NCBI GenBank assembly: GCA_002720745.1
Contig: PBJO01000018.1
Coordinates: 1 to 64,000 of the forward strand
Length of the DNA stretch: 64,000 bases
Direction of reading: 5' to 3'
Origin: Balneola sp.
GTDB lineage: Bacteria > Bacteroidota > Rhodothermia > Balneolales > Balneolaceae
The stretch's first letter is position 1, and each line of letters opens with the position of its first letter. The notes under the pieces are model-generated. The model was not told where the DNA came from, made no database searches, and worked only from the letters and a program-made list of their open reading frames with translations. This document shows positions 2,480-14,595 of this stretch, in pieces. Both the position numbers and the translations under genes were made by a program.

Positions 2480-3499
2480 TTATTTATACTTATCTACATT
2501 ATAGTCAATTGATTTAACACCTCTAAAACCAATATGAAACATAGAATTGTCTATTGGTGTATAGCTTCTAGCTGAGACCCTATAACCATGACAATAAGAA
2601 GTATGACATAAAAAAGAACCGCCTCTTAGAACTTTTTGACTTGCAGGATTAATTATATAAGGTTGATTGTAGTCTTCATAAGATCGATACCAATCCGATG
2701 TCCACTCCCAAACATTACCACCCATATCAGACAGATCAAACTGATTAGTACCAAATGTTCCTACTGGTGATGTTGTTAAATAGCCATCGTCTATTGTATT
2801 CATAATTGGGAAAACACCATTCCATGTATTGGCCATATATGTTGAGTCATTTTCTTTGAGTTCTTGACCCCAGCTGTAAGGATTGTCTCGAAGCGATATT
2901 CCTCTTGCCGCGTGTTCCCATTCAACCTCCGTTGGTAAGCGTTTATCAACCCAAGATAAATATTCATCCGCATCACTATAGGAAAGCATAGTAACAGGAT
3001 GATTATCATTGGCTTTTTCAGCTAACGGTCCTTGCGGATAATCCCAAGTTGCATTTGGCAATAACACCCAAGTCGATTTTTTAAAGTCAAAGACAACGCC
3101 ATCACCAAATTTTTCAGCCTCTGTCACGTAACCAGTTTCTTCTATGAAATCTCTAAATTCCGCAACAGTCACCATTTTTTTGTCCATCAAAAAGGGTTGT
3201 ACTTCGGTTTGAAATACAGGCTTTTCATTGGCTAGTCCCGATTCAGAACCTATCCATATTTCGCCTCCTAAGATTAAACTCATCTCAGAAGGTATCTTAT
3301 AGTTTTTTTTATTCACTTCTAACCAACTCTTATATTCATTCTCAGTTGTAATTTTTTCTCCATCTGGTGCATAACAACAATCATTATACGCAGAAATATT
3401 AGAATTCAAATTTACATCGTCATTACTACAGCTAAGTATATATATAAATAGAAGAGTAGAACCAAATAGTACAATTTTATTCATTATCAAAAGATTCAT
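2480..3499 (-). CDS. Formylglycine-generating enzyme (sulfatase maturase), lipoprotein
   Basis: FGE/SUMF1-family oxidase that converts the active-site Cys of a sulfatase to formylglycine. Family motifs are present: EWEHAARG, the GGNVWEWTSDW core and RGGSFLCHTSYCHGYRVSARS. Both copper-binding catalytic cysteines (Cys298 and Cys303 in the CHxSYC motif) are conserved, as in human FGE, so it should be catalytically competent rather than a structural relative. The N-terminus is a lipoprotein signal ending in YILSC (Cys24). A start at Met6 is equally plausible. It is divergent from a Cys-type sulfatase with 146 bp between them, which is its obvious substrate. If both are exported, maturation would occur in the envelope. 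Confidence 0.88.
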   Translation of the reverse strand: MNLLIMNKIVLFGSTLLFIYILSCSNDDVNLNSNISAYNDCCYAPDGEKITTENEYKSWLEVNKKNYKIPSEMSLILGGEIWIGSESGLANEKPVFQTEVQPFLMDKKMVTVAEFRDFIEETGYVTEAEKFGDGVVFDFKKSTWVLLPNATWDYPQGPLAEKANDNHPVTMLSYSDADEYLSWVDKRLPTEVEWEHAARGISLRDNPYSWGQELKENDSTYMANTWNGVFPIMNTIDDGYLTTSPVGTFGTNQFDLSDMGGNVWEWTSDWYRSYEDYNQPYIINPASQKVLRGGSFLCHTSYCHGYRVSARSYTPIDNSMFHIGFRGVKSIDYNVDKYK

Positions 3500-3645
3500 A
3501 TATTTGACAGAGATAAATAATATTCTTACTTAATTATTATTTTCATTTATACTTAATCTAAAAAAGAAATATAAATTATATAGTTTTTTTATTAAATAGA
3601 ACTAATATTTAAATTATAACACTGTAAAAAACGTGCTATAATCTT

Positions 3646-5022
3646 ATGACTATGACTAAGCAATTATATTTTATTTTGACTTTATTATTATTTGCTGTGT
3701 GCACAAAGATTGATAAGAATTTAAATCCTAATATAATATATATTCTTACTGATGATTTAGGTTATGGCGATATTGGTGTTTATGGTGCTACTGATATTAA
3801 AACGCCCAACATAGATTATCTGGCTAATAATGGGATTCTTTTTACTGATTTTTATTCTGCTTCTTCAGTATGTACACCATCTAGAGCTGGACTATTAACA
3901 GGGCGTTACCCTCAAAGAATGGGAGTTAATGGTGTGTTCTTTCCAGAGAGTTTCCAAGGTATGCCTACAGAGGAATTTACAATTGCTGAAATGTTGAAAG
4001 TGAAAAATTACAAAACAGGATTGATTGGAAAATGGCATCTAGGACATCATCAAAGCTTTTTACCTCTTTCGCAAGGCTTTGATGAGTATTTTGGTATTCC
4101 ATACAGTAATGACATGGAAAGTGTTGTATATATGAGAGGTAATAAAGTTTTTACACATACAGTTGATCAATCACAATTAACTAAAACTTATACACAAGAG
4201 GCAATCAATTTTATTGATAGAGTAGAAGACCAACCATTTTTTCTGTTTTTTTCTCATAATATGCCCCATGTACCTTTGTATGCATCAGATGAGTTTTTAG
4301 GTAGTTCTGATCGAGGTTTATATGGAGATGTGGTACAAGAAATTGATTGGAGCGTAGGTCAAATAATTAAAAAGTTAAAGGATAATGATTTACTTAATAA
4401 TACATTAATAGTTTTTTCTAGTGACAATGGACCCTGGTTGGTTATGGAAGATCATAGTGGTAGTTCAGGCGGTTTAAGAGAAGGCAAAATGTATTCTTTT
4501 GATGGTGGTATGAAAGTACCTTTAATTGCAATGTGGGCATCGTATATTCCTTCTAATACAAGAGTTGTTGAGATGGCAACTCAACTCGATTGGTTCCCAA
4601 CTATTGCAGAAATAACTGGTTTTAAAATTCCCAAAAATTTAGTGATAGATGGAGTAAGTCTTGTCAAAGTACTTAATAATTCAGATAAACGAGAAGATGA
4701 GGGTTTTTTATTTTTAGAATACGAAGAGTTAACTGGTTACCGAAAAGGTGACTGGAAAGTAAAAAAACCGTCTATGGGTTTCGAAGGTACATGGTGGAAA
4801 AATGCTACTTCTAGTCACGATTCATTGTTGTTTAATTTAAAATATGATCCATTTGAAATGGACAATTTATTTGATGCAAATAAAGAATTTGCTCGAAAAC
4901 TATTCAATGAAATGGAGAAAGAATATTTTAATTTAGGTGAGCTACCACCATCAATTTATATTCGAACACCTGCAGATGAAAGTCATTTGGAGTATCTAAA
5001 TTTAAATAATATTCCAAAATAG
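3646..5022 (+). CDS. Arylsulfatase-family hydrolase, Cys-type (CTPSR)
   Basis: Type I sulfatase of the alkaline-phosphatase superfamily, 458 residues. The formylglycine motif CTPSR begins at Cys76, followed by AGLLTGRYPQR. The N-terminal metal-binding Asp pair is in ILTDDLGYGDIG (residues 33-44), and the C-terminal side has FSSDNGPW. The N-terminus is hydrophobic and ends in AVC (Cys19), so it may be a lipoprotein, although the lipobox is not ideal. It hydrolyses sulfate esters, probably on an algal polysaccharide or oligosaccharide given the neighbouring mutarotase. Starts at 3646 and 3652 (MTMTKQ) are both possible. The divergent FGE gene supplies the maturation enzyme. The precise S1 subfamily cannot be assigned by eye. 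Confidence 0.9.
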   Translation: MTMTKQLYFILTLLLFAVCTKIDKNLNPNIIYILTDDLGYGDIGVYGATDIKTPNIDYLANNGILFTDFYSASSVCTPSRAGLLTGRYPQRMGVNGVFFPESFQGMPTEEFTIAEMLKVKNYKTGLIGKWHLGHHQSFLPLSQGFDEYFGIPYSNDMESVVYMRGNKVFTHTVDQSQLTKTYTQEAINFIDRVEDQPFFLFFSHNMPHVPLYASDEFLGSSDRGLYGDVVQEIDWSVGQIIKKLKDNDLLNNTLIVFSSDNGPWLVMEDHSGSSGGLREGKMYSFDGGMKVPLIAMWASYIPSNTRVVEMATQLDWFPTIAEITGFKIPKNLVIDGVSLVKVLNNSDKREDEGFLFLEYEELTGYRKGDWKVKKPSMGFEGTWWKNATSSHDSLLFNLKYDPFEMDNLFDANKEFARKLFNEMEKEYFNLGELPPSIYIRTPADESHLEYLNLNNIPK

Positions 5023-5221
5023 TATTTTTATTTAGGAAACGCATTTGCCATTGTTAGACCTAGTCTAATGAGAAAAACTTAAAGGTAAAAAATAGCCCTT
5101 ATTAAAAAGATTTGAGTATAATCAATCGACATTAAGAGTAACACTGCTAGAATTGAACCGCAAACTGACATAGAACCATTTAATCCATGATTATACCCAA
5201 TAATGTGCTTAATTATAATAG

Positions 5222-6499
5222 TTATCCTTCTCTTTGTATGACTATAATAGTTATATCATCACTTTGTTCAGCTTCATTACGAAAATGATTTAATTCTTCA
5301 GTAATACCTTCAACCATTGCGTCAGGATCTAAAAACTTATTGTCTATTAACCATTTTTCAAATCTTTCTTCTCCATAAAAATCACCCTTTACATTTCTAG
5401 CCTCTGTAATACCGTCAGAATACAAAATTATTTTTTGGTTGGATTTTATCTCATAAACCTCTTCATCATATTTCACTGTATCTAGTATACCCAACATTAG
5501 ACCCCCGACTTCAAGAGTAGAAATCGAATTTTTTTCAACATCTAATACATAAGGATTGTTATGACCTGCATTTACATAACGTATTGTATTTTTGATTGAA
5601 TCCAATTCACAATATACAGCTGTTATAAATTTGTCTAATGGTGAATCCTTAAATATTAATTCATTCACTTTAGTTAAGGATATATTGGGCGTATTACTGT
5701 ACTCTAAATGTGATCTAAGAGAAGCTCTCATGGTAGCCATAAGTAAGGCGGCTGATACACCCTTACCAGTAACGTCTGCCACTGTAAATCCCCAATTATT
5801 TTTATTAGGTAATGAAATAAAATCATAATAGTCGCCTCCAACATTTTTTGCAGGTATACTACAACCAGCAACTTTATAATTTGTAATCATTGGTTGCTCT
5901 TTAGGCCAAAATCCACTTTGAATGGTAGATGCTAGTTCAATTTCTTTGTTTAATAATTGGTTATTCAACCGTTCTTTATGTAGTAATGCATTTTCAACAG
6001 CAATTGCTGCCTGATTTGCCATAGTTTGAAAAATTTCTGCATTATCTTGCCCAAATTTTTCTAATTGAAGACTATTTATAGCCTGTAGAGCTCCAATTAC
6101 CTCATTATTATGATTAATTAAAGGAACACAAATTATATTTTTTGTTTTAAATGAAGATCCTTTACCTAAATCTCCCCCAAATCTTGAGTCTTTACTCACA
6201 TCTTCAACGACTGCTAACTTTTTATTTTGTACAACCCACCCTGAGATACCTGATGTTACTGGAATTTTTTTACCTGACAATTCAGCTGTTAAAGGACCTG
6301 TAGGGATCGTTAAAATTAAATCGTTTTTGTCCTCAGATAATAGAAACAATGAACTCGCTTCAGCGCTCATTATTTCCTTTGTTGCATTCATTATTTCTTT
6401 AAGAATATTTTTCAATTCTAAATTAGAATTAATTTTGGCAACTAATTCCATTAACAAATTTAGTTTATTTACATCTATTAAATTATTTTCTTTTGACAT
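5222..6499 (-). CDS. GAF-domain PP2C serine phosphatase (RsbU/SpoIIE type)
   Basis: This 425-residue cytoplasmic protein has a GAF sensor domain (about residues 20-170) and a SpoIIE-type PP2C phosphatase domain (about 200-425). Metal-binding motifs of the PP2C fold are visible: NVGGDYYDF, VADVTGKGVSAALLMA, YVNAGHNNP, LYSDGITEARN and QSDDITIIVI. RsbU-type enzymes dephosphorylate a STAS antagonist so that it can bind an RsbW-type kinase. Both partner types are encoded 6-8 kb upstream on the same strand (12814-13101 and 13103-13513), so this is the likely phosphatase of that switch. It is the last gene of a three-gene unit, starting 2 bp after the PrsW-like gene. The GAF ligand is unknown. Confidence 0.9.
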   Translation of the reverse strand: MSKENNLIDVNKLNLLMELVAKINSNLELKNILKEIMNATKEIMSAEASSLFLLSEDKNDLILTIPTGPLTAELSGKKIPVTSGISGWVVQNKKLAVVEDVSKDSRFGGDLGKGSSFKTKNIICVPLINHNNEVIGALQAINSLQLEKFGQDNAEIFQTMANQAAIAVENALLHKERLNNQLLNKEIELASTIQSGFWPKEQPMITNYKVAGCSIPAKNVGGDYYDFISLPNKNNWGFTVADVTGKGVSAALLMATMRASLRSHLEYSNTPNISLTKVNELIFKDSPLDKFITAVYCELDSIKNTIRYVNAGHNNPYVLDVEKNSISTLEVGGLMLGILDTVKYDEEVYEIKSNQKIILYSDGITEARNVKGDFYGEERFEKWLIDNKFLDPDAMVEGITEELNHFRNEAEQSDDITIIVIQREG

Positions 6500-6501
6500 A
6501 T

Positions 6502-7509
6502 CTATTTAATTAATGTTAATTGCCACAAATCTGTGTCTTTTAGGTTTAATAATGGTTGTATAGCAATTTTACCAGTTTTACCAATTTGAGTTTCCAAATA
6601 TTCAAGCTCCTTAAATTGTGCTATAGTAGAAGGATCAGGTTCTAGTTCGATTCCTGAATCTTTCAAGATTAGCAGCCCTTTTGCTTTAACAGAAAGCTCC
6701 AAATATATTCGTAAATAACAAATAATATCTCCTACTACTAAGGGCTGAAAGCTATTTTGGATAGTTGAGATGTACTTGCCTACTCTTGTCTCAGATATAT
6801 TACCTGCCATCAATAATTTAAGTAATTCCATATCATTATCTAATCCAACACCCAACCAAGATCTAGTAAACTCTTCGCTTTTATTAAAAATTACATAATA
6901 GATAATCGGCAGTGATAAAATAGTAATAATAGCAGTTGTGATGGGTGGCAATAAAAATAAATTATAGACAGCATGAATAATAACTGCTGATAAATAACCA
7001 AGTAAAAATGTAAAAGAGTTATTCCAAGACTTCGTATCATAAATAATTTTTATAATAATAGCAGCAATACTTGTAACTCCGCCATGCATTATTGCAGTAC
7101 CAAAACCTCTGACAAACCACGTAATTAAACTAGTATTATTTAGTAAATTTAAGTAAAAGATATTTTCAATAAGTGCAAATCCTACTCCGATTGCAAATCC
7201 TAGTATTGCACTATCAATCATAAATCCTATACGCCGTTGCCTGAATAATAATAATATCGGAATAAGCTTTAAGAACTCTTCAGTAAATGGGGCTATGAAA
7301 CGACTTAATGTTATTCGGTCGACTGAATAATTAATAGTAATAAAATCATTAACTAATGTAGCCAAACCTGCGGTTATACAACCAATAACTACAGTTAAGA
7401 GTAGAAATTTTTTCTTTATTAATTGAAAAGTGTCTAGATACCACATTATTAGCAAAAAAATTAACATGGGCAGCAAAGCTACACTAAATTCAATTATCAC
7501 CTGCATCAT
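6502..7509 (-). CDS. PrsW-family intramembrane metalloprotease
   Basis: Polytopic membrane protein of 335 residues. PrsW hallmarks are present: TEEFLK (Glu77, Glu78, Lys81), ALIENIFYL (Glu115, Asn116), the His142 region MHGGVTS and IHAVYNLFL (His179, Asn183). The last 110 residues form a soluble C-terminal extension without recognised motifs. In Bacillus subtilis, PrsW performs site-1 cleavage of the membrane anti-sigma factor RsiW. Here it lies between an HExxH protease gene (18 bp gap) and a GAF-PP2C phosphatase gene (2 bp gap), and 3 kb from a membrane-anchored anti-sigma candidate. A role in cleaving that protein is inference. The more distant CPBP/Abi proteases share the EE motif but fit less well. 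Confidence 0.82.
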   Translation of the reverse strand: MMQVIIEFSVALLPMLIFLLIMWYLDTFQLIKKKFLLLTVVIGCITAGLATLVNDFITINYSVDRITLSRFIAPFTEEFLKLIPILLLFRQRRIGFMIDSAILGFAIGVGFALIENIFYLNLLNNTSLITWFVRGFGTAIMHGGVTSIAAIIIKIIYDTKSWNNSFTFLLGYLSAVIIHAVYNLFLLPPITTAIITILSLPIIYYVIFNKSEEFTRSWLGVGLDNDMELLKLLMAGNISETRVGKYISTIQNSFQPLVVGDIICYLRIYLELSVKAKGLLILKDSGIELEPDPSTIAQFKELEYLETQIGKTGKIAIQPLLNLKDTDLWQLTLIK

Positions 7510-7527
7510 AACATTGAATAATCTAGA

Positions 7528-10479
7528 CTATCTCATTAAACGCAATGAAATCATCAATTCACTATAGCTCTCACCACTTAAATCATCTATTGCAGTTGCA
7601 TAACCTATTGAAAGGGTTGACGAAAGTATTTGGATCATTGATAATCTAAAGTCAATTTGAGCACCAATATTAAAAAATCGCTCGTTAAACTTAGAGTCAT
7701 CCAAATTAGTCATTAATGTACTGGTAAATAGGTTCATCTGAGCCCAATTCATATGGTAATTATTAAATCCGAGTTTTTTAAACCTAATGGGCGGTAGTGA
7801 AAGTTCACCCATAATTTTCATATAATTTGTTCCTCCTACTTTATTCAATTCTACACCAGGAAAAGAAGTCGCATTACGATACCTCTTGCTGTATTGATTG
7901 TCAATCCAATTGTTCCCAAAACCACCAAAATAAAAATTTCCCAATGGTTCTTTTCTTGGTGAAAATGAAATCCCAGCCGATGATCTAACCCAAACAGATG
8001 AGTGCTTAACTGGTAATGGTATACCAAAATCAAAACTTTGACTGATTCTAGGAAATAAAGTCTCAGCCACATAATTATTGTAAGAGCTCATGGACCATTG
8101 AAAACCTTTTTCGTAATCGACAGCCCCTAAAGACGCTCTCATAGACTGATAGTTAATACTTCCAGATAATGCGAAAAACTGATCAAAAGAAGTAATTACA
8201 TTTTGGAAATTAGGCAGTCTCTCCATGCCACCAAAATAAATACCGCTGATATTTGCTGATAAATTTTTATCTACCTCCTCTATTAGATTAAAATTTCTAG
8301 AGAGTCCTAGTGAATAACCTTTTCTTGATTTTTTTGTTGGGCCAAACAAATCATAAAAATCAGCTCCATTATAAGTCCCTGAAATTGCCCAATCTGAAAA
8401 TTCATAGGATGCAGATGCATGTACATTTTCATCATTTTCCAATAAGGAATTGTTTGTGAATGACAGTTCAATTCCTATGTTGTGCAGTTTCATAGGATCA
8501 TTTATGTTAATTTTCACACCAGGAGAGACATAATCCTTATATCCATGAATAATTGGATAAATAGAGTTAAGCTTTAGCTTTCTAATCGGTTTATAATCAG
8601 ATACCCCTATTTTTATTGAATTAACATCAATTATGTTTTGTGAAGGTGGTGGTAAAATCCAATCCATTACGATTGGATGATTTTCGACTATTTCCTGCCC
8701 TAAAAAATGTATAGCACTAACTTTTTTTACAGGTTTATTTTCTAAATAAATAGGGTAAAAACCGTTACCTGAATATTCAAATGCAATCAACTTTTCATCA
8801 TTCAATGGTACAGGCTTAAATAGGCCCGTTTCTGCGTTACTTAACCATTCCATGGTTTCATTTTCCATAGAGTACCTAGTAATATTAGAAACTCCAGAAT
8901 AGTATGATGAACCATATAAAAATTTACCATCATCTGAAAAAGTAAAACTTGCAGGAGAACTTACATCAAAATCATAAATCTCTCTTGGATTGAATTCAGC
9001 ATTCATTAATTCATCTATTTCTAATAAAACTAATTTTTGAAAACCACTAACATCTCCAATAGCAGCACTCAAATATTTACCATTTGGAGATATATCTATG
9101 TCAAATAGATCTTCACCATATGGCATTGTGTATACTCTTTCCCAGTCGTCATAAGGTTTTGGAATTCTGATTAGTGATGCTATTCCGTTAAAATGTCTCA
9201 CAGCCCATAAAGATTCATCATGCTCGTTAAAAACCAGATAACCAGCCCTTAGATCTTTAATCAATTGTTTTGGTTTTTTCTCATCTATCTTAACTGTAAA
9301 TAAATCTCTCCAACCGTTATTATTATTTGTATAAAAAATAGATCCAGATTTTTTATCATAGGCCAATGAAGTCACGAAATATACAGCCGATCCAATAACA
9401 TCTGTCACCTTATCGAAAGTACCTTTATCTAAATCATATGTTGTAATATGGGCCACTTCACCCGGCAAATCAGCAGCAAAAATCAGCTTATTCCTAACTT
9501 TGTCATATACTGCGTTAGATACTGCACCTAATGGATTAGTTGAGAGACGTTCACCTTGAGTAACTGAATTACTTCTAATTCTATGTAAGTTAGATGATTG
9601 CCATTCCTTTTCCCACTCAATCCAATTTGACCACTCATCATCTAATGATATACCATAAATATTTTTAAACTGTTTGGCATAAAAACTCTTGCTTTCGTCA
9701 TCACGAGAAACCCAATCTAAAAGACTATTTGGTCCATATTTGTTGGATAGATAGGCCATGAATCTTGTCCCGTACATATAAGAATTCGAACCAATCTCAA
9801 AATCATTAGTAGTCCCTTCAGATTCTAATCCTACCGCATCATAAATATGCATTGAGTCTCGAACCATTGTCCGAAACATCATCTCATCATATCCCCCCAT
9901 TACTCTTCCAATACCACCATTCATCCATGTTGTCATGTAATCAGCAATACCCTCATGGTACCATCTAGGTGCGTAAATCCGTGGATTAGTCAAATAACTA
10001 TATCCCATTGAAATTGGATTATCTTTATCCGGAGCGACTTTCCCACCGAAAATTTTTCTAAATGTAAGATCTCTATTTGACGGTTTTTCTTGAGCAATGA
10101 TATGTACTAATTCATGCTTCATAAGAACACCTATTCTCTCATTAGCTTGATTAGTCTCATAAGCATAACTAAAAGGGGCTATGCCCATTAAAACCACATT
10201 ATTTGGTACTGCAGTTGCACCACCTTGTGCAAAATCACCAAAATCAGACATAATTACATGTATTGGTTCATTTACCTTATAAGCAAACTTTTCTTTATGG
10301 AACTCGAGTGCATTGGTAAAATTTCTAATGGAGTGATTTATAAGATATTCATGACCAAAATTGTAATAAATTAGTTCAAGATCTTCCGTTGAAACAATTT
10401 TAAATTGAGCATTAGTAGACTTAATAAAACTGAATAGCGATATAAGTATTACAAGTATTGTGGTTTTATTTATACCCAT
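7528..10479 (-). CDS. Secreted HExxH metallopeptidase with propeller-like middle and barrel-like C-terminus
   Basis: Protein of 983 residues with a signal peptide (to about residue 24). Zinc motif HELVH lies at residues 122-126 and a downstream WYHEGIADY with Glu176, the peptidase-MA (gluzincin) arrangement. Residues of about 290-600 contain repeated units resembling a TolB-type beta-propeller (ISPNGKYLSAAIGD, FSDDGKFLYGSS). The last 330 residues alternate short polar and aromatic strands and end in SLRLMR, consistent with an outer-membrane beta-barrel, although this is judged only by eye. It is the first gene of the operon with the PrsW-like and PP2C genes. It could be a surface protease or a non-catalytic sensor of envelope state. 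The substrate is unknown. Confidence 0.7.
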   Translation of the reverse strand: MGINKTTILVILISLFSFIKSTNAQFKIVSTEDLELIYYNFGHEYLINHSIRNFTNALEFHKEKFAYKVNEPIHVIMSDFGDFAQGGATAVPNNVVLMGIAPFSYAYETNQANERIGVLMKHELVHIIAQEKPSNRDLTFRKIFGGKVAPDKDNPISMGYSYLTNPRIYAPRWYHEGIADYMTTWMNGGIGRVMGGYDEMMFRTMVRDSMHIYDAVGLESEGTTNDFEIGSNSYMYGTRFMAYLSNKYGPNSLLDWVSRDDESKSFYAKQFKNIYGISLDDEWSNWIEWEKEWQSSNLHRIRSNSVTQGERLSTNPLGAVSNAVYDKVRNKLIFAADLPGEVAHITTYDLDKGTFDKVTDVIGSAVYFVTSLAYDKKSGSIFYTNNNNGWRDLFTVKIDEKKPKQLIKDLRAGYLVFNEHDESLWAVRHFNGIASLIRIPKPYDDWERVYTMPYGEDLFDIDISPNGKYLSAAIGDVSGFQKLVLLEIDELMNAEFNPREIYDFDVSSPASFTFSDDGKFLYGSSYYSGVSNITRYSMENETMEWLSNAETGLFKPVPLNDEKLIAFEYSGNGFYPIYLENKPVKKVSAIHFLGQEIVENHPIVMDWILPPPSQNIIDVNSIKIGVSDYKPIRKLKLNSIYPIIHGYKDYVSPGVKININDPMKLHNIGIELSFTNNSLLENDENVHASASYEFSDWAISGTYNGADFYDLFGPTKKSRKGYSLGLSRNFNLIEEVDKNLSANISGIYFGGMERLPNFQNVITSFDQFFALSGSINYQSMRASLGAVDYEKGFQWSMSSYNNYVAETLFPRISQSFDFGIPLPVKHSSVWVRSSAGISFSPRKEPLGNFYFGGFGNNWIDNQYSKRYRNATSFPGVELNKVGGTNYMKIMGELSLPPIRFKKLGFNNYHMNWAQMNLFTSTLMTNLDDSKFNERFFNIGAQIDFRLSMIQILSSTLSIGYATAIDDLSGESYSELMISLRLMR

Positions 10480-10523
10480 GATTTAACACTATTTAAAGAA
10501 TTTTATTTTGGTTATTCAATAAA

Positions 10524-10560
10524 AATTACTTGGAAAGTTATTTACACTTAATTACTTGGA
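10524..10560. promoter_or_regulatory. Direct repeat AATTACTTGGA upstream of the protease-PrsW-PP2C operon
   Basis: The 11-base sequence AATTACTTGGA occurs twice, at 10524-10534 and 10550-10560, with a 26-bp period (about two and a half helical turns). It lies 45-81 bp upstream of the start codon at 10479 and downstream of the terminator at 10634. This is a reasonable position for a regulator site controlling the operon. The regulator is unknown. Confidence 0.4.
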
Positions 10561-10633
10561 CATTGACTGTATAGTCTTAATATCATGTATCGTTCAAGAT
10601 ATTAGGTTAAGCAAGCTAGTAAATGATTCTAAA

Positions 10634-10672
10634 TAAAAAAAAGACTACAAATGTATTTTGTAGTCTTTTTTG
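10634..10672. terminator. Bidirectional rho-independent terminator
   Basis: A near-perfect stem (AAAAAGACTACAAA against TTTGTAGTCTTTTT) with a short loop, flanked by A and T tracts on both sides. It lies 38 bp past the end of the repeat-protein gene and separates the sigma/anti-sigma operon from the protease-PrsW-phosphatase operon. Confidence 0.9.
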
Positions 10673-10709
10673 GCTCAAAACTAAATAAATATATTAATTC
10701 TACAAGTAA

Positions 10710-12221
10710 TTATTTAAATGATACTATATCTGGCCCACTAATTAAATTATGAAAATTTGGATTTGCCATGAGCCTATTAAAATTAGGTGATGCCATTAAT
10801 TCATTGAAAGAGGGACTTGCTAATAACTGTATAAAATTAGGAGTAGAGACAAGTCGAGCAAAATCCGGGCTTGAAATTAATCTACTAAAATTTGGACTTG
10901 AAATTAATTGAGCAAAGTCTGGACCCGCCATCAATTGAGCAAAGTTTGGCCCTGCCATTAATTCTGTGAAATTTGGGCTTGCAATTAGCTCAGTAAAATT
11001 AGGACTTGCCATTAGTTGGCGAAAATTAGGGCTTGAAACTAATCTGCTAAAATTTGGACTTGAGATTAACTGCGCAAAGTTTGGACCCGCCATCAGTTGA
11101 GTAAAGTTTGGACTTGTCATTAATTGAGCAAAGTCAGGTGTCGATACGAGTCGGGCAAAACTTGGGTTTGAGGTTAATTCAGCAAATTCAGGACTAGCTA
11201 GTAGCTGTGCAAAATTTGGACTTGATGTGAGTTCTGCAAATTCTGGGCTTGCCGCTAGTTCTGTAAAATTTGGGCTAGTTATCAACTGCGCAAACTCAGG
11301 ACCTGTAATTAATTTTGCAAAATTTGGACTAGCCAAAAGTTCACTAAATGAAGGATTAGTAGTTAATCTAGCAAAATCTGGGCTTGCTGCTAACATAGCG
11401 AATTCTGGGCTTACCATTAGTTGTGCAAAGTCAGGCGCAGCCAATAATTCAGCGAAACTTGGACTACTAGTTAGTTCAGCGAAAGAAGGACTAGTAATAA
11501 GTTCGCTAAAGTTAGGACTAGACATCAATTGAGCAAATTCAGGATTAGCCATTAATTGAGCAAAATCAGGACTTGCAATCATTTGATTAAAATTAGGACT
11601 TGCAAATAATTGAAAGAAATCAGGGCTTGCCATTAATTGGACAAACGATTCGTTTTGAGATAAATTTGTTAGCTCCCCTGATTCAACTAAATCCATAAAG
11701 GTTTTGTCTTGTAATAGCTGCTGCATTTCCTGATTTTCAAGAGTAATATCAGCTTGAGTTACCTGGGTGGCTCTATAACGGACGGCTCGTTCAACAGGAT
11801 CACCACCAATAGTTCCACTTATTTCATTAGTTGAAGGTTGTTCTATATTTGATGCAAATAGAATCAAATACATGGCGGCTGCCCCTATAGCAGCTGAAAT
11901 GAAATTTGACATCGTTATCTTGTTATTACTTTTGGCCATTATATCTCCATTAATAGTTTTGGTTTTATTTATTGTTTGTTTTTTGTTTTTAAACTCTGAT
12001 TCAATAGCTGTTATAATGTTGTTTTTAATTTCAAATGATGATTTGGAAATTAATAACTTTTCACTTAAATACGATAGTTCAGCAGCAAGCAATTTAATTT
12101 CAAGCATCAAATCCTTTGCCTCTGAATTTTTATTGATAAGTTCCCGAAATGATTTTGAAGCATCTAATGAATTTTCGTTATCAATTTCTGACTGAATTAA
12201 TTGTATATATTTTTTATCCAT
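10710..12221 (-). CDS. Membrane-anchored putative anti-sigma factor with nonapeptide-repeat extracytoplasmic domain
   Basis: Protein of 503 residues in three parts. Residues 1-105 are charged and helical, with no Cys, so this is not a zinc-binding anti-sigma domain. A single hydrophobic segment spans about 106-124. From about 171 to the end the protein is 9-residue repeats of the form (A/S/T)SPxFxxLx. It starts 65 bp after the ECF sigma gene, the classic anti-sigma position, and is the last gene before a strong terminator. The fold of the repeat domain is unknown; Pro-x-Phe-x-x-Leu every nine residues suggests a regular solenoid or extended rod. The anti-sigma assignment rests on position and topology, not on a recognised domain. 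Confidence 0.6.
   Translation of the reverse strand: MDKKYIQLIQSEIDNENSLDASKSFRELINKNSEAKDLMLEIKLLAAELSYLSEKLLISKSSFEIKNNIITAIESEFKNKKQTINKTKTINGDIMAKSNNKITMSNFISAAIGAAAMYLILFASNIEQPSTNEISGTIGGDPVERAVRYRATQVTQADITLENQEMQQLLQDKTFMDLVESGELTNLSQNESFVQLMASPDFFQLFASPNFNQMIASPDFAQLMANPEFAQLMSSPNFSELITSPSFAELTSSPSFAELLAAPDFAQLMVSPEFAMLAASPDFARLTTNPSFSELLASPNFAKLITGPEFAQLITSPNFTELAASPEFAELTSSPNFAQLLASPEFAELTSNPSFARLVSTPDFAQLMTSPNFTQLMAGPNFAQLISSPNFSRLVSSPNFRQLMASPNFTELIASPNFTELMAGPNFAQLMAGPDFAQLISSPNFSRLISSPDFARLVSTPNFIQLLASPSFNELMASPNFNRLMANPNFHNLISGPDIVSFK
10713..11711 (-). repeat. Tandem 27-bp repeats encoding about 34 nonapeptides
   Basis: Codons 198-503 of the host gene resolve into 34 consecutive 9-residue units; the first is ASPDFFQLF and the last, SGPDIVSFK, is degenerate. 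Three further degenerate units of the same length (QDKTFMDLV, ESGELTNLS, QNESFVQLM) precede them, extending the array to residue 171. Pro, Phe and Leu are almost invariant, while neighbouring positions vary among Ser, Asn, Asp, Glu, Ala and Thr. Codons differ between units, so the array is diverged and not a recent slippage product. The unit is a whole number of codons, so gain or loss keeps the frame. Confidence 0.9.
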
Positions 12222-12286
12222 TTAGAGCTAGTGTTCCTTTATTATAAATACAATACAGATTATCGAATGTTGGTGAAAAATTTAAG

Positions 12287-12811
12287 TTAATTCCCTTTAA
12301 CATGATTTCTTAAAATCATTCTTGCACTATACAATCTAGACTTCACTGTTTTTTCAGACACGTCTAGAATTTGTGATATTTCCTTGTAGGTAAAATTTTC
12401 AAAATGTTTTAGCTGAATTATAATTCTTTGATCTTGACTTAGTTTAGCTATAGCCAAATTTAATTTATTTAATTTGAAAGTATCTATCTCATCAATATCA
12501 GACTCAATAACATGAATATTCTCATCATACTCTTCAAATATCCGAGTTTTTTTGAGAGTATTTAGAGATTCATTAACAGCTATTTTATATAGCCAACTTT
12601 TAAAGTTGTATCCAAAATCATAATTATGAAGATATTTCCAAGACTTAATAAACACATCTTGTGTTATTTCTTGGGATGTCTCAGAATTTTTTATAATTCC
12701 TAAGATTAATCTAAAGATTTGATCTTGATATTCATCAATCAAAGCTTCAAATGACTTTAAATCACCATTCAAAGATTTTCTAATCAGATTATGAATAATG
12801 TTTTGATCCAT
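12287..12811 (-). CDS. ECF-type RNA polymerase sigma-70 factor
   Basis: Protein of 174 residues with the two ECF regions. Region 2 includes LIDEYQDQIFRLILG, EITQDVFIKSW and FKSWLYKIAVN. Region 4 is a helix-turn-helix with FTYKEISQILDVSEKTVKSRLYSAR. It starts 2 bp after the STAS gene ends, and the membrane-anchored repeat protein follows it. It could therefore be under dual control, by a membrane anti-sigma factor and by the RsbW-like kinase upstream. Which of the two binds it cannot be decided from sequence. Confidence 0.93.
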   Translation of the reverse strand: MDQNIIHNLIRKSLNGDLKSFEALIDEYQDQIFRLILGIIKNSETSQEITQDVFIKSWKYLHNYDFGYNFKSWLYKIAVNESLNTLKKTRIFEEYDENIHVIESDIDEIDTFKLNKLNLAIAKLSQDQRIIIQLKHFENFTYKEISQILDVSEKTVKSRLYSARMILRNHVKGN

Positions 12812-12813
12812 GT

Positions 12814-13101
12814 CTATTCATCAAATACAAACAGTTGATCTAACCTTGTATATTTAAATACATCCTTAATATGTTCATTAAGATTCTTTAGAACCACTTT
12901 ATAACCCATACCATTAAGCCGATGATAATTTTTAACTAATATACCCAACCCCATACTTGAAATATAACTCAATTCTTCCAAATCTAGCGTTAATGTAACT
13001 TCGTATTTCTGCATAAAATCAGTCACAATCTCAGCTTGGCTAGCATCAAACTCACCAATTAATTTAATTTCATTCTGGCTAACTTCTTTAATTTTAAACA
13101 T
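12814..13101 (-). CDS. STAS-domain anti-sigma factor antagonist (RsbV/SpoIIAA type)
   Basis: A 95-residue single STAS domain. The phosphorylatable serine region is ELSYISSMGLGILV, matching the conserved ISSxGL of RsbV and SpoIIAA. In this family the unphosphorylated form binds and sequesters the kinase/anti-sigma protein. The gene starts 1 bp downstream of the RsbW-like gene and ends 2 bp before the ECF sigma gene, so translation of the three is probably coupled. The PP2C phosphatase at 5222-6499 is the likely activating enzyme. Confidence 0.92.
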   Translation of the reverse strand: MFKIKEVSQNEIKLIGEFDASQAEIVTDFMQKYEVTLTLDLEELSYISSMGLGILVKNYHRLNGMGYKVVLKNLNEHIKDVFKYTRLDQLFVFDE

Positions 13102-13102
13102 T

Positions 13103-13513
13103 TCAATTTATATGTTTAGTTATTTTTATGGTTGTTTTACCTGCATCATGATCAAATATTAGATCATCCATCAGTTTTTTGATGAGATGAATTCCAAGGC
13201 CGCCATATTTTTTTTGTTTAAAATACTCATCAAAATCAATCTCATCTGTATTTAGTATATCAAATGGATTGTCTTCATGATCTATCAAACTTATGGAAAT
13301 ACTATCTTTATAGGATTCTATTCTAATAGCTATATCCTTATTTGTAGTTTTATTGTGACGTACCATATTCATAAAAATTTCTTCCACAGACAATTTTAGC
13401 TCATTAAGTATTTTTAGATTTGACGCATTTTCTGCTATTACAGTATTCAAGAAATGAAATATCATAGGTAATTCATTAGCATTCCTATTGAAATATTTAA
13501 TTTCATTGCTCAT
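13103..13513 (-). CDS. RsbW-like HATPase serine kinase / anti-sigma factor
   Basis: A 136-residue GHKL ATPase. The N-box is SVEEIFMNMVRH, followed by LIDHEDNPFD, and the G-box is KYGGLGIHLIKKLMD. This matches RsbW/SpoIIAB-type kinases that phosphorylate a STAS partner and bind a sigma factor. It heads the four-gene unit with STAS, ECF sigma and the repeat protein. The start at 13513 leaves about 700 bp of gene-poor sequence upstream. Its sigma or regulator target is unknown. Confidence 0.9.
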   Translation of the reverse strand: MSNEIKYFNRNANELPMIFHFLNTVIAENASNLKILNELKLSVEEIFMNMVRHNKTTNKDIAIRIESYKDSISISLIDHEDNPFDILNTDEIDFDEYFKQKKYGGLGIHLIKKLMDDLIFDHDAGKTTIKITKHIN

Positions 13514-14217: not shown

Positions 14218-14288
14218 GGCGACATGGCCGAGTGGCTAGGCAGAGGTCTGCAAAACCTTATACGGCGGTTCGAATCCGCCTGTCGCCT
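14218..14288 (+). tRNA. tRNA-Cys (GCA)
   Basis: The cloverleaf has acceptor GGCGACA pairing with TGTCGCC, anticodon loop CTGCAAA (anticodon GCA) and T-loop GGTTCGAATCC. It is first in a four-tRNA cluster. CCA is not encoded. Confidence 0.95.
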
Positions 14289-14323
14289 CATATGTTTTAT
14301 TTAATTGTTTGACTTAATAACCT

Positions 14324-14396
14324 GCCGCGTTCGTCTAGAGGCCTAGGACGCCGCCCTTTCACGGCGGTAGCACGGGTTCGAATCCCGTACGCGGTA
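14324..14396 (+). tRNA. tRNA-Glu (TTC), copy 1
   Basis: Acceptor GCCGCGT pairs with ACGCGGT, and the anticodon loop CTTTCAC gives anticodon TTC. The bases after the discriminator A happen to read CCA (14397-14399). The body is identical to the second copy at 14495. Confidence 0.95.
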
Positions 14397-14404
14397 CCAT
14401 TTAT

Positions 14405-14479
14405 GGAGCCCGTAGCTCAGTCGGTTAGAGCGCCAGGTTGTGGCCCTGGAGGCCGTGGGTTCAATCCCCATCGGGCTCC
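14405..14479 (+). tRNA. tRNA-His (GTG)
   Basis: Anticodon loop TTGTGGC gives GTG. There is an extra 5' G (14405) opposite C73, the tRNA-His identity element, next to acceptor GAGCCCG/CGGGCTC. Confidence 0.94.
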
Positions 14480-14494
14480 CAAAATGTAATCATT

Positions 14495-14567
14495 GCCGCG
14501 TTCGTCTAGAGGCCTAGGACGCCGCCCTTTCACGGCGGTAGCACGGGTTCGAATCCCGTACGCGGTA
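14495..14567 (+). tRNA. tRNA-Glu (TTC), copy 2
   Basis: Same sequence as the copy at 14324-14396 through the discriminator base, followed by CTT rather than CCA. The two copies flank tRNA-His, which suggests a local duplication within the cluster. Confidence 0.95.
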
Positions 14568-14595
14568 CTTCTTGTTTACTGGCAATAAAAATAAG

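Follow-up and report, generated by a model that had tools for sequence, protein, structure and literature searches.

Gene cluster at the locus

The DNA analyzed here, referred to as the window, is a stretch of 64,000 nucleotides from Balneola sp. (Bacteroidota, order Balneolales; assembly GCA_002720745.1, contig PBJO01000018.1, positions 1–64,000 of the forward strand). It lies on contig 18 of a genome that is 2.17 Mb in size and 98.6% complete, and the whole analysis is computational. Between positions 5222 and 13513, seven open reading frames, all on the minus strand and separated by gaps of 1, 2, 65, 230, 18, and 2 bp, encode an RsbW/STAS pair, an extracytoplasmic function (ECF) sigma factor, a membrane protein with nine-residue repeats, an HExxH protein, a PrsW-family protease, and a GAF-PP2C phosphatase. 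An initial annotation, made from the sequence alone, had proposed these genes as a new signaling system that joins cytoplasmic partner switching to membrane control of an ECF sigma factor; all seven carry the domains assigned to them, at the positions and with the spacing it gave.

In the direction of transcription, the cluster begins with a predicted RsbW-like serine kinase/anti-sigma factor (13103..13513; 136 amino acids; HATPase_c_2, PF13581, 4e-16), a single-domain STAS protein (12814..13101; 95 amino acids; Pfam STAS, 2e-10), and the ECF sigma factor (12287..12811; 174 amino acids; Pfam Sigma70_r2/r4_2). The fourth gene (10710..12221) encodes a 503-amino-acid anti-sigma/transmembrane/nonapeptide-repeat fusion, hereafter the repeat protein. 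Its residues 1–90 (11952..12221) are a putative zinc-less, class-I-like anti-sigma domain with four predicted helices, residues 107–125 (11847..11903) are a transmembrane helix as judged from the sequence, and residues 128–195 (11637..11840) are a strongly conserved juxtamembrane segment; approximately 33 tandem nine-residue repeats (10737..11636), predicted to form a short-helix solenoid, follow. An ECF-type promoter element, ACCAACATTCGATAATCTGTATTGTATTT (ACCAAC-N16-TGTAnTT; 12246..12274), precedes this gene, and a Rho-independent terminator (10630..10670) lies after it. Further downstream are the HExxH protein (7528..10479; 983 amino acids), which has a signal peptide, a gluzincin-type motif, a TolB-like propeller, and a BamA/Omp85-like barrel, the PrsW-family intramembrane protease (6502..7509; PrsW-protease, PF13367, 1.4e-26), and the GAF-PP2C (SpoIIE-type) phosphatase (5222..6499; Pfam GAF and SpoIIE, 1e-48). 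Every gene of the cluster is under purifying selection, with ratios of nonsynonymous to synonymous substitution rates (dN/dS) of 0.06–0.26.

Conservation of the cluster

The relatives that we surveyed are mostly metagenome-assembled genomes of Balneola, Balneolaceae, and Balneolales, and some of the additional synteny loci represent the same contig twice. A first search of 78 relatives' genomes recovered 12 strong orthologs of the HExxH protein besides that of the window (54–97% identity), and at these orthologs the order RsbW-STAS-sigma-repeat-HExxH-PrsW recurs wherever the contig is long enough, a few losses aside. Of 129 genomes of the order, 28 contain the sigma factor, 26 contain the HExxH protein, and 25 contain both. 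In the phylum at large, the HExxH profile matches 29 of 394 genomes.

A phylum-wide search with residues 1–200 of the repeat protein identified four distant loci from other families and classes. In each, RsbW, STAS, sigma, and HExxH genes are present, and the anti-sigma domain and the transmembrane/repeat part are encoded by two separate genes (the RsbW and STAS genes of L173, L174, and L176 were identified by stop-to-stop profile searches). PrsW is the next gene in three of the four, and in the fourth (L175) the contig ends inside the HExxH gene. Identity to the window proteins at these loci is 31–43% for sigma and 39–48% for the HExxH protein. Among the additional loci found with the HExxH profile, L211 and L214 lack an adjacent RsbW and keep sigma, anti-sigma, transmembrane protein, HExxH, and PrsW; L212 and L213 retain the downstream part of the cluster, and the remainder contain only a more remote HExxH relative. 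At L212 (positions 3946–7875; genome G172), two proteins whose N-termini look TIR-like (YDIFVSYRH/YDIFISYRH) are encoded upstream of the transmembrane-repeat gene.

Gene order that is kept across families and classes rules out a chance neighborhood. The co-occurrence that had been predicted for related genomes is found: the partner-switch genes, ECF sigma factor, anti-sigma candidate, HExxH gene, and PrsW form one cluster. By this evidence from synteny, the six genes RsbW, STAS, sigma, repeat, HExxH, and PrsW are one conserved unit that predates the order. The seventh proposed member, GAF-PP2C, is found beside PrsW only in the window's genus and in one close relative (L063).

Genome G026 has lost the transmembrane part, the repeats, the HExxH gene, and PrsW, and retains an 84-amino-acid anti-sigma domain, RsbW-STAS-sigma, and an intact promoter. 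Judged from synteny with genome G121, these losses look like one deletion. Between G026 and G121, dN/dS is 0.06–0.14 for RsbW, STAS, and the anti-sigma domain, and sigma is saturated at synonymous sites; much of this divergence may be older than the deletion. In genome G067, the cluster comprises sigma plus a short repeat protein, and a membrane-bound PP2C of 720 amino acids (L116:3104-5266) is encoded divergently from this pair.

Sigma factor and fused anti-sigma/repeat protein

The sigma factor has regions 2 and 4 only and matches ECF structures. For the N-terminus of the repeat protein, AlphaFold places helices at residues 3–13, 19–31, 33–56, and 62–84, with modest confidence overall and low confidence for the fourth. 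Class I anti-sigma factors (ASDI) are described as an N-terminal three-helix bundle plus a fourth helix, with the gene adjoining that of the ECF sigma factor (PMC7406223), and both the helix arrangement of residues 1–90 and the adjacency to an ECF gene fit that description. RsiW was the only anti-sigma factor among the top PDB matches of these residues, without significance, and zf-HC2 matched weakly in 2 of 11 members (best E 0.04). Twelve loci with weak relatives of the domain elsewhere in the order were examined, and in 7 of them an ECF sigma gene directly adjoins the relative. Because these relatives adjoin ECF sigma genes and the domain is a gene of its own in the distant loci, the genomic context supports the initial suggestion that the N-terminus behaves as an anti-sigma domain, which would bind the neighboring sigma factor. 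In the four distant loci, the anti-sigma gene and the transmembrane/repeat gene are neighbors, and the protein of the window's lineage is therefore a fusion of the two. Locus L210 has what looks like a second fusion, an anti-sigma/transmembrane protein of its own.

The repeats have a strong nine-residue period (identity of 0.54 at lag 9, and at most 0.08 at other lags), number approximately 30–47, and are alike within species and different between species. They are modeled as short helices, with a predicted local distance difference test score (pLDDT) near 82. Pfam yielded only a weak STI1-like match for the protein, and a fold search with its model gave no meaningful PDB match. A sequence match to coagulation factor V was set aside as convergence on a nine-residue repeat.

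Between membrane and repeats, the juxtamembrane segment carries the motif SGTIGxD..VERAxRYRxTQ...DIxLENxE.QQLLQ. Its first part is modeled with very low confidence, as in disordered regions, and a shorter form is present even in distant transmembrane proteins that have no nine-residue repeats. These properties fit a candidate cleavage or docking site. At L063 (positions 3473–6433), two repeat proteins are encoded in tandem; the second has neither an anti-sigma domain nor a promoter element, retains the transmembrane helix, juxtamembrane segment, and repeats, and is not followed by a terminator.

Promoter, terminator, and predicted regulon

A comparison of upstream regions revealed ACCAAC-N16-TGTAnT directly ahead of the repeat gene at almost every locus, with -35 variants in genome G059 (GCCAAC) and in L053, L054, and their duplicates (ACAAAC). 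ECF promoters typically have AAC at -35 and GTA at -10. In six distant loci (L173, L174, L175, L176, L210, and L214; that of L176 was read by eye), a matching motif, also with an N16 spacer, stands ahead of the sigma gene. At L173 and L174, no more than a few bases separate the element from the annotated start of sigma, so that the start codon is uncertain or the transcript may be leaderless. As far as these comparisons reach, the element tracks the sigma/anti-sigma pair even where its position shifts.

The window genome contains a single strict promoter site, at the repeat gene. The strict pattern occurs in 35 of the 129 genomes of the order and stands at the repeat gene in 23 of the 28 sigma-positive genomes; the other five either have a variant -35 (G115 and G059) or have the region at contig ends or not recovered (G035, G064, and G056). 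Extra strict sites show no excess in sigma-positive genomes (2 in 28, compared to 13 in 101 sigma-negative genomes). In a one-mismatch scan of nine genomes, 48 sites were found, nine of them at repeat genes, and the 39 extra sites are no clear excess over the 33 obtained with a reversed-pattern control. Neither the strict nor the one-mismatch scan points to a wider regulon. The only extra site shared among genomes (G093, G095, and G045) was rejected, as it falls within a coding sequence of the opposite strand (confirmed for G093 and G095).

The terminator between the repeat and HExxH genes, which had been noted in the window, is real and present in every genus checked. Because the promoter is virtually confined to the repeat gene, behind which the terminator lies, the predicted output is one gene: the strict-motif regulon of the sigma factor is its own anti-sigma/repeat protein, provided that this sigma factor recognizes the element, as we infer. 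The plain reading of the layout is three transcription units, namely RsbW-STAS-sigma, the repeat gene from its putative sigma-type promoter, and HExxH-PrsW.

HExxH protein and PrsW

In the HExxH protein, HELVH (residues 122–126) and WYHEG (with E176) are invariant in 20 orthologs from the order, and distant orthologs retain them for the most part. The motifs provide HExxH and a downstream Glu ligand, as expected of a gluzincin, and peptidase activity is predicted. The protein has no gathering-level or otherwise significant match to a Pfam family, gluzincin families included, and the assignment is based on motif, architecture, and Foldseek. In the low-confidence model (mean pLDDT 64), an alpha/beta domain and a propeller are accompanied by approximately 16 C-terminal strands; Foldseek matched the propeller to TolB (8e-7) and listed BamA (2e-4), and a weak Omp85_2 match was found in 5 of the 20 orthologs. 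The best reading of the model is an outer-membrane barrel with a periplasmic propeller and a gluzincin-like domain. A related HExxH subfamily (~700 bits) occurs at L217, L221, and L223–L226, where the next gene was matched through a GAF domain; this supposed PP2C is GAF-histidine-kinase-like in both cases inspected (L217 and L224) and was not used.

The PrsW protein has invariant E77, E78, K81, H142, and H179, and hence the EExxK and His motifs of the family, together with its Pfam match. It also has a conserved C-terminal domain of approximately 125 amino acids, and its score falls below the NCBIfam PrsW equivalog cut-off.

Partner-switch genes and the PP2C phosphatase

The RsbW-like protein matches the structure of RsbW at 6e-10. 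Its N-box E-N and its G2-box GGLG are conserved and the G1 glycine is replaced in all orthologs; kinase activity is a prediction. The STAS protein has an invariant YISS-G motif, the second serine of which (S49) aligns with S56 of RsbV, the phospho-serine of RsbV/SpoIIAA. With this invariant, putatively phosphorylatable serine, it resembles an antagonist of the RsbV/SpoIIAA type. The pair is widely conserved in the cluster and may act on the sigma factor encoded there. In one genus (L058, L064, L065, L097, L117, and L127), a second STAS protein of approximately 114–127 amino acids is encoded divergently, upstream of RsbW-STAS-sigma.

We rejected PP2C as a core member of the cluster. The PP2C of genome G009, which is 31% identical, occupies another position in the cluster, and that of the window is 47% identical to its own paralog on contig C20, which suggests separate recruitment. 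PP2C thus does not belong to this operon as it does to operons of the SigB/SigF type.

Proposed mechanism and alternatives

We propose that the cluster encodes a self-replenishing sigma/anti-sigma envelope sensor, a homeostat, and give this reading of the sequences an even chance. The N-terminal anti-sigma domain of the fused protein would hold the ECF sigma factor at the inner membrane, and its periplasmic part would consist of the juxtamembrane segment and the long helical repeat domain. The juxtamembrane segment would be exposed by an envelope event, in whose sensing the outer-membrane HExxH/TolB-like/BamA-like protein probably takes part, so that PrsW, perhaps with the HExxH protein, could cleave the fused protein and free the sigma factor. 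Free sigma would then fire essentially one promoter and yield new anti-sigma/repeat protein from a single-gene, terminated transcript; the output would be replacement of the consumed protein and shut-off. RsbW/STAS, with PP2C recruited in some genera, would add an input from the cytoplasm, in the simplest case by setting how much of the same sigma factor is available. Sigma binding, the order of cleavage, the signal, and the target of RsbW/STAS are, like the sigma-promoter link, what we infer.

More tentatively, and with some doubt, we suggest a stricter form of the model in which the sigma factor is dedicated to the single promoter of its own anti-sigma gene. The repeat protein would then be sensor, inhibitor, and sole product. 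An outer-membrane peptidase/TolB/BamA-like protein would consume it at the envelope together with PrsW, it would be replaced as needed, and RsbW/STAS would set the gain. The deletion in G026 fits the homeostat model, because the parts that cleavage would require left together and the anti-sigma domain and promoter stayed. The initial interpretation stands in part; it had not included the promoter, the one-promoter regulon, the fusion, the juxtamembrane segment, or the modularity of the HExxH protein.

Several observations weigh against the homeostat. The RsiW match of residues 1–90 is weak (E 0.17), the AlphaFold models are modest (mean pLDDT of 69 for the repeat protein and 64 for the HExxH protein), and no site-2 protease is found within the cluster. 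The repeats are not universal, as distant transmembrane proteins have the juxtamembrane segment without nonamers. RsbW is missing beside the cluster in G059 and G056, which keep STAS, and in G009, where the different PP2C lies upstream in its place; G067, L211, and L214 show neither RsbW nor STAS adjoining sigma. The one-promoter regulon, moreover, covers strict sites only, and degenerate sites outside the patterns may serve the sigma factor.

The cluster could instead be an ordinary RsiW/PrsW-type envelope-stress system with a broad regulon, in which the repeat promoter is simply the strongest site, an autoregulatory one, and sensing falls to the repeat domain. PrsW beside a sigma/anti-sigma pair is in keeping with this explanation, as are autoregulation, which is usual, and the motif before the sigma gene itself in the six distant loci, which is the standard arrangement. 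We nevertheless find a broad regulon rather unlikely, given that strict sites are not in excess over sigma-negative genomes, nor one-mismatch sites clearly so over the reversed control, and that, within the window's order, the anti-sigma gene alone is served by the promoter, with a conserved terminator behind it. Also unlikely, in our view, is a primarily structural or chaperone-like envelope function of the repeat protein, within an outer-membrane assembly/peptidase machine that would include the HExxH protein, with the anti-sigma domain sensing its level. The anti-sigma-repeat fusion, the high conservation of the HExxH protein (54–67% identity between genera), and repeats that are homogenized within species and differ between them would suit such a role, but direct evidence of an assembly function is absent and some distant homologs lack the repeats.

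It is a substantial possibility, somewhat short of an even one, that sigma, repeat protein, HExxH protein, and PrsW are the real system and that RsbW/STAS lies outside sigma control, with another target and mere linkage to the cluster. RsbW and STAS have been lost or replaced in several lineages in which sigma and the repeat protein stay, another RsbW relative is present in nearly every genome of the order, and the Rhodobacter rba RsbW/RsbV pair has no identified sigma target (PMC3999984). Yet the order RsbW-STAS-sigma is kept from the window's genus to distant classes, with gaps of only 1–2 bp in the window, and the three genes outlast the loss of the protease half in G026.

Relation to known systems

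The cluster resembles SigW-RsiW-PrsW of Bacillus subtilis in having an ECF sigma factor, a membrane anti-sigma factor with an N-terminal domain, and a PrsW-family protease. Unlike in that system, the anti-sigma domain is joined in one protein to a conserved juxtamembrane segment and approximately 33 repeats, PrsW is clustered with an outer-membrane HExxH/TolB/BamA-like protein in a Gram-negative envelope, the motif is found essentially only at the anti-sigma gene, and the cluster has no site-2 protease. As in RsbU/RsbV/RsbW-SigB and SpoIIE/SpoIIAA/SpoIIAB-SigF, an RsbW-like kinase and a STAS protein with a conserved phospho-serine adjoin the sigma gene, and PP2C is present in some genera; here, however, the sigma factor is a two-domain ECF protein, its membrane anti-sigma factor is a separate protein, and PP2C is not conserved. 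EcfG-NepR-PhyR likewise links an ECF sigma factor to partner switching, but no NepR or PhyR mimic was seen in the cluster, which has kinase/STAS proteins instead. In FliA-FlgM and similar systems, the anti-sigma factor is consumed or exported, and its loss reports an envelope event and frees the sigma factor. By comparison, loss here would be by proteolysis, and the main predicted output of the sigma factor is the anti-sigma factor itself.

In a review of non-canonical ECFs, EcfG is the only partner-switch class named for ECFs (PMC8999054). Class I anti-sigma genes are located beside few ECFs in Bacteroidetes (6%; PMC7406223), and for the RsbW/RsbV-type pair of Rhodobacter attempts to find a cognate sigma factor failed (PMC3999984). 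The initial annotation had named no described system with this exact gene set, and we found no description of it in the open-access literature, a scope that subscription journals fall largely outside. Within ECF/membrane anti-sigma/proteolysis control, the cluster is unlike known systems in its fused anti-sigma protein, its added partner-switch pair, and its apparently self-directed output. An ECF cluster that joins RsbW/STAS, PrsW, and an HExxH/TolB/BamA-like protein offers a concrete case for studying how the state of the envelope is relayed to transcription in this phylum. Should the one-promoter circuit hold, the anti-sigma factor would be both sensor and product, a design that we did not find described.

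Genomic setting

The cluster adjoins a tRNA array (tRNAs at 14218–14568 in the window) and is present in some genomes of the genus and absent from others. In three cluster-free genomes of the same genus (G001, G007, and G004; loci L177, L180, and L181), the neighboring LacI/transporter genes are present, together with all or part of the tRNA array (Cys/Glu/His/Glu), which is followed by other genes.

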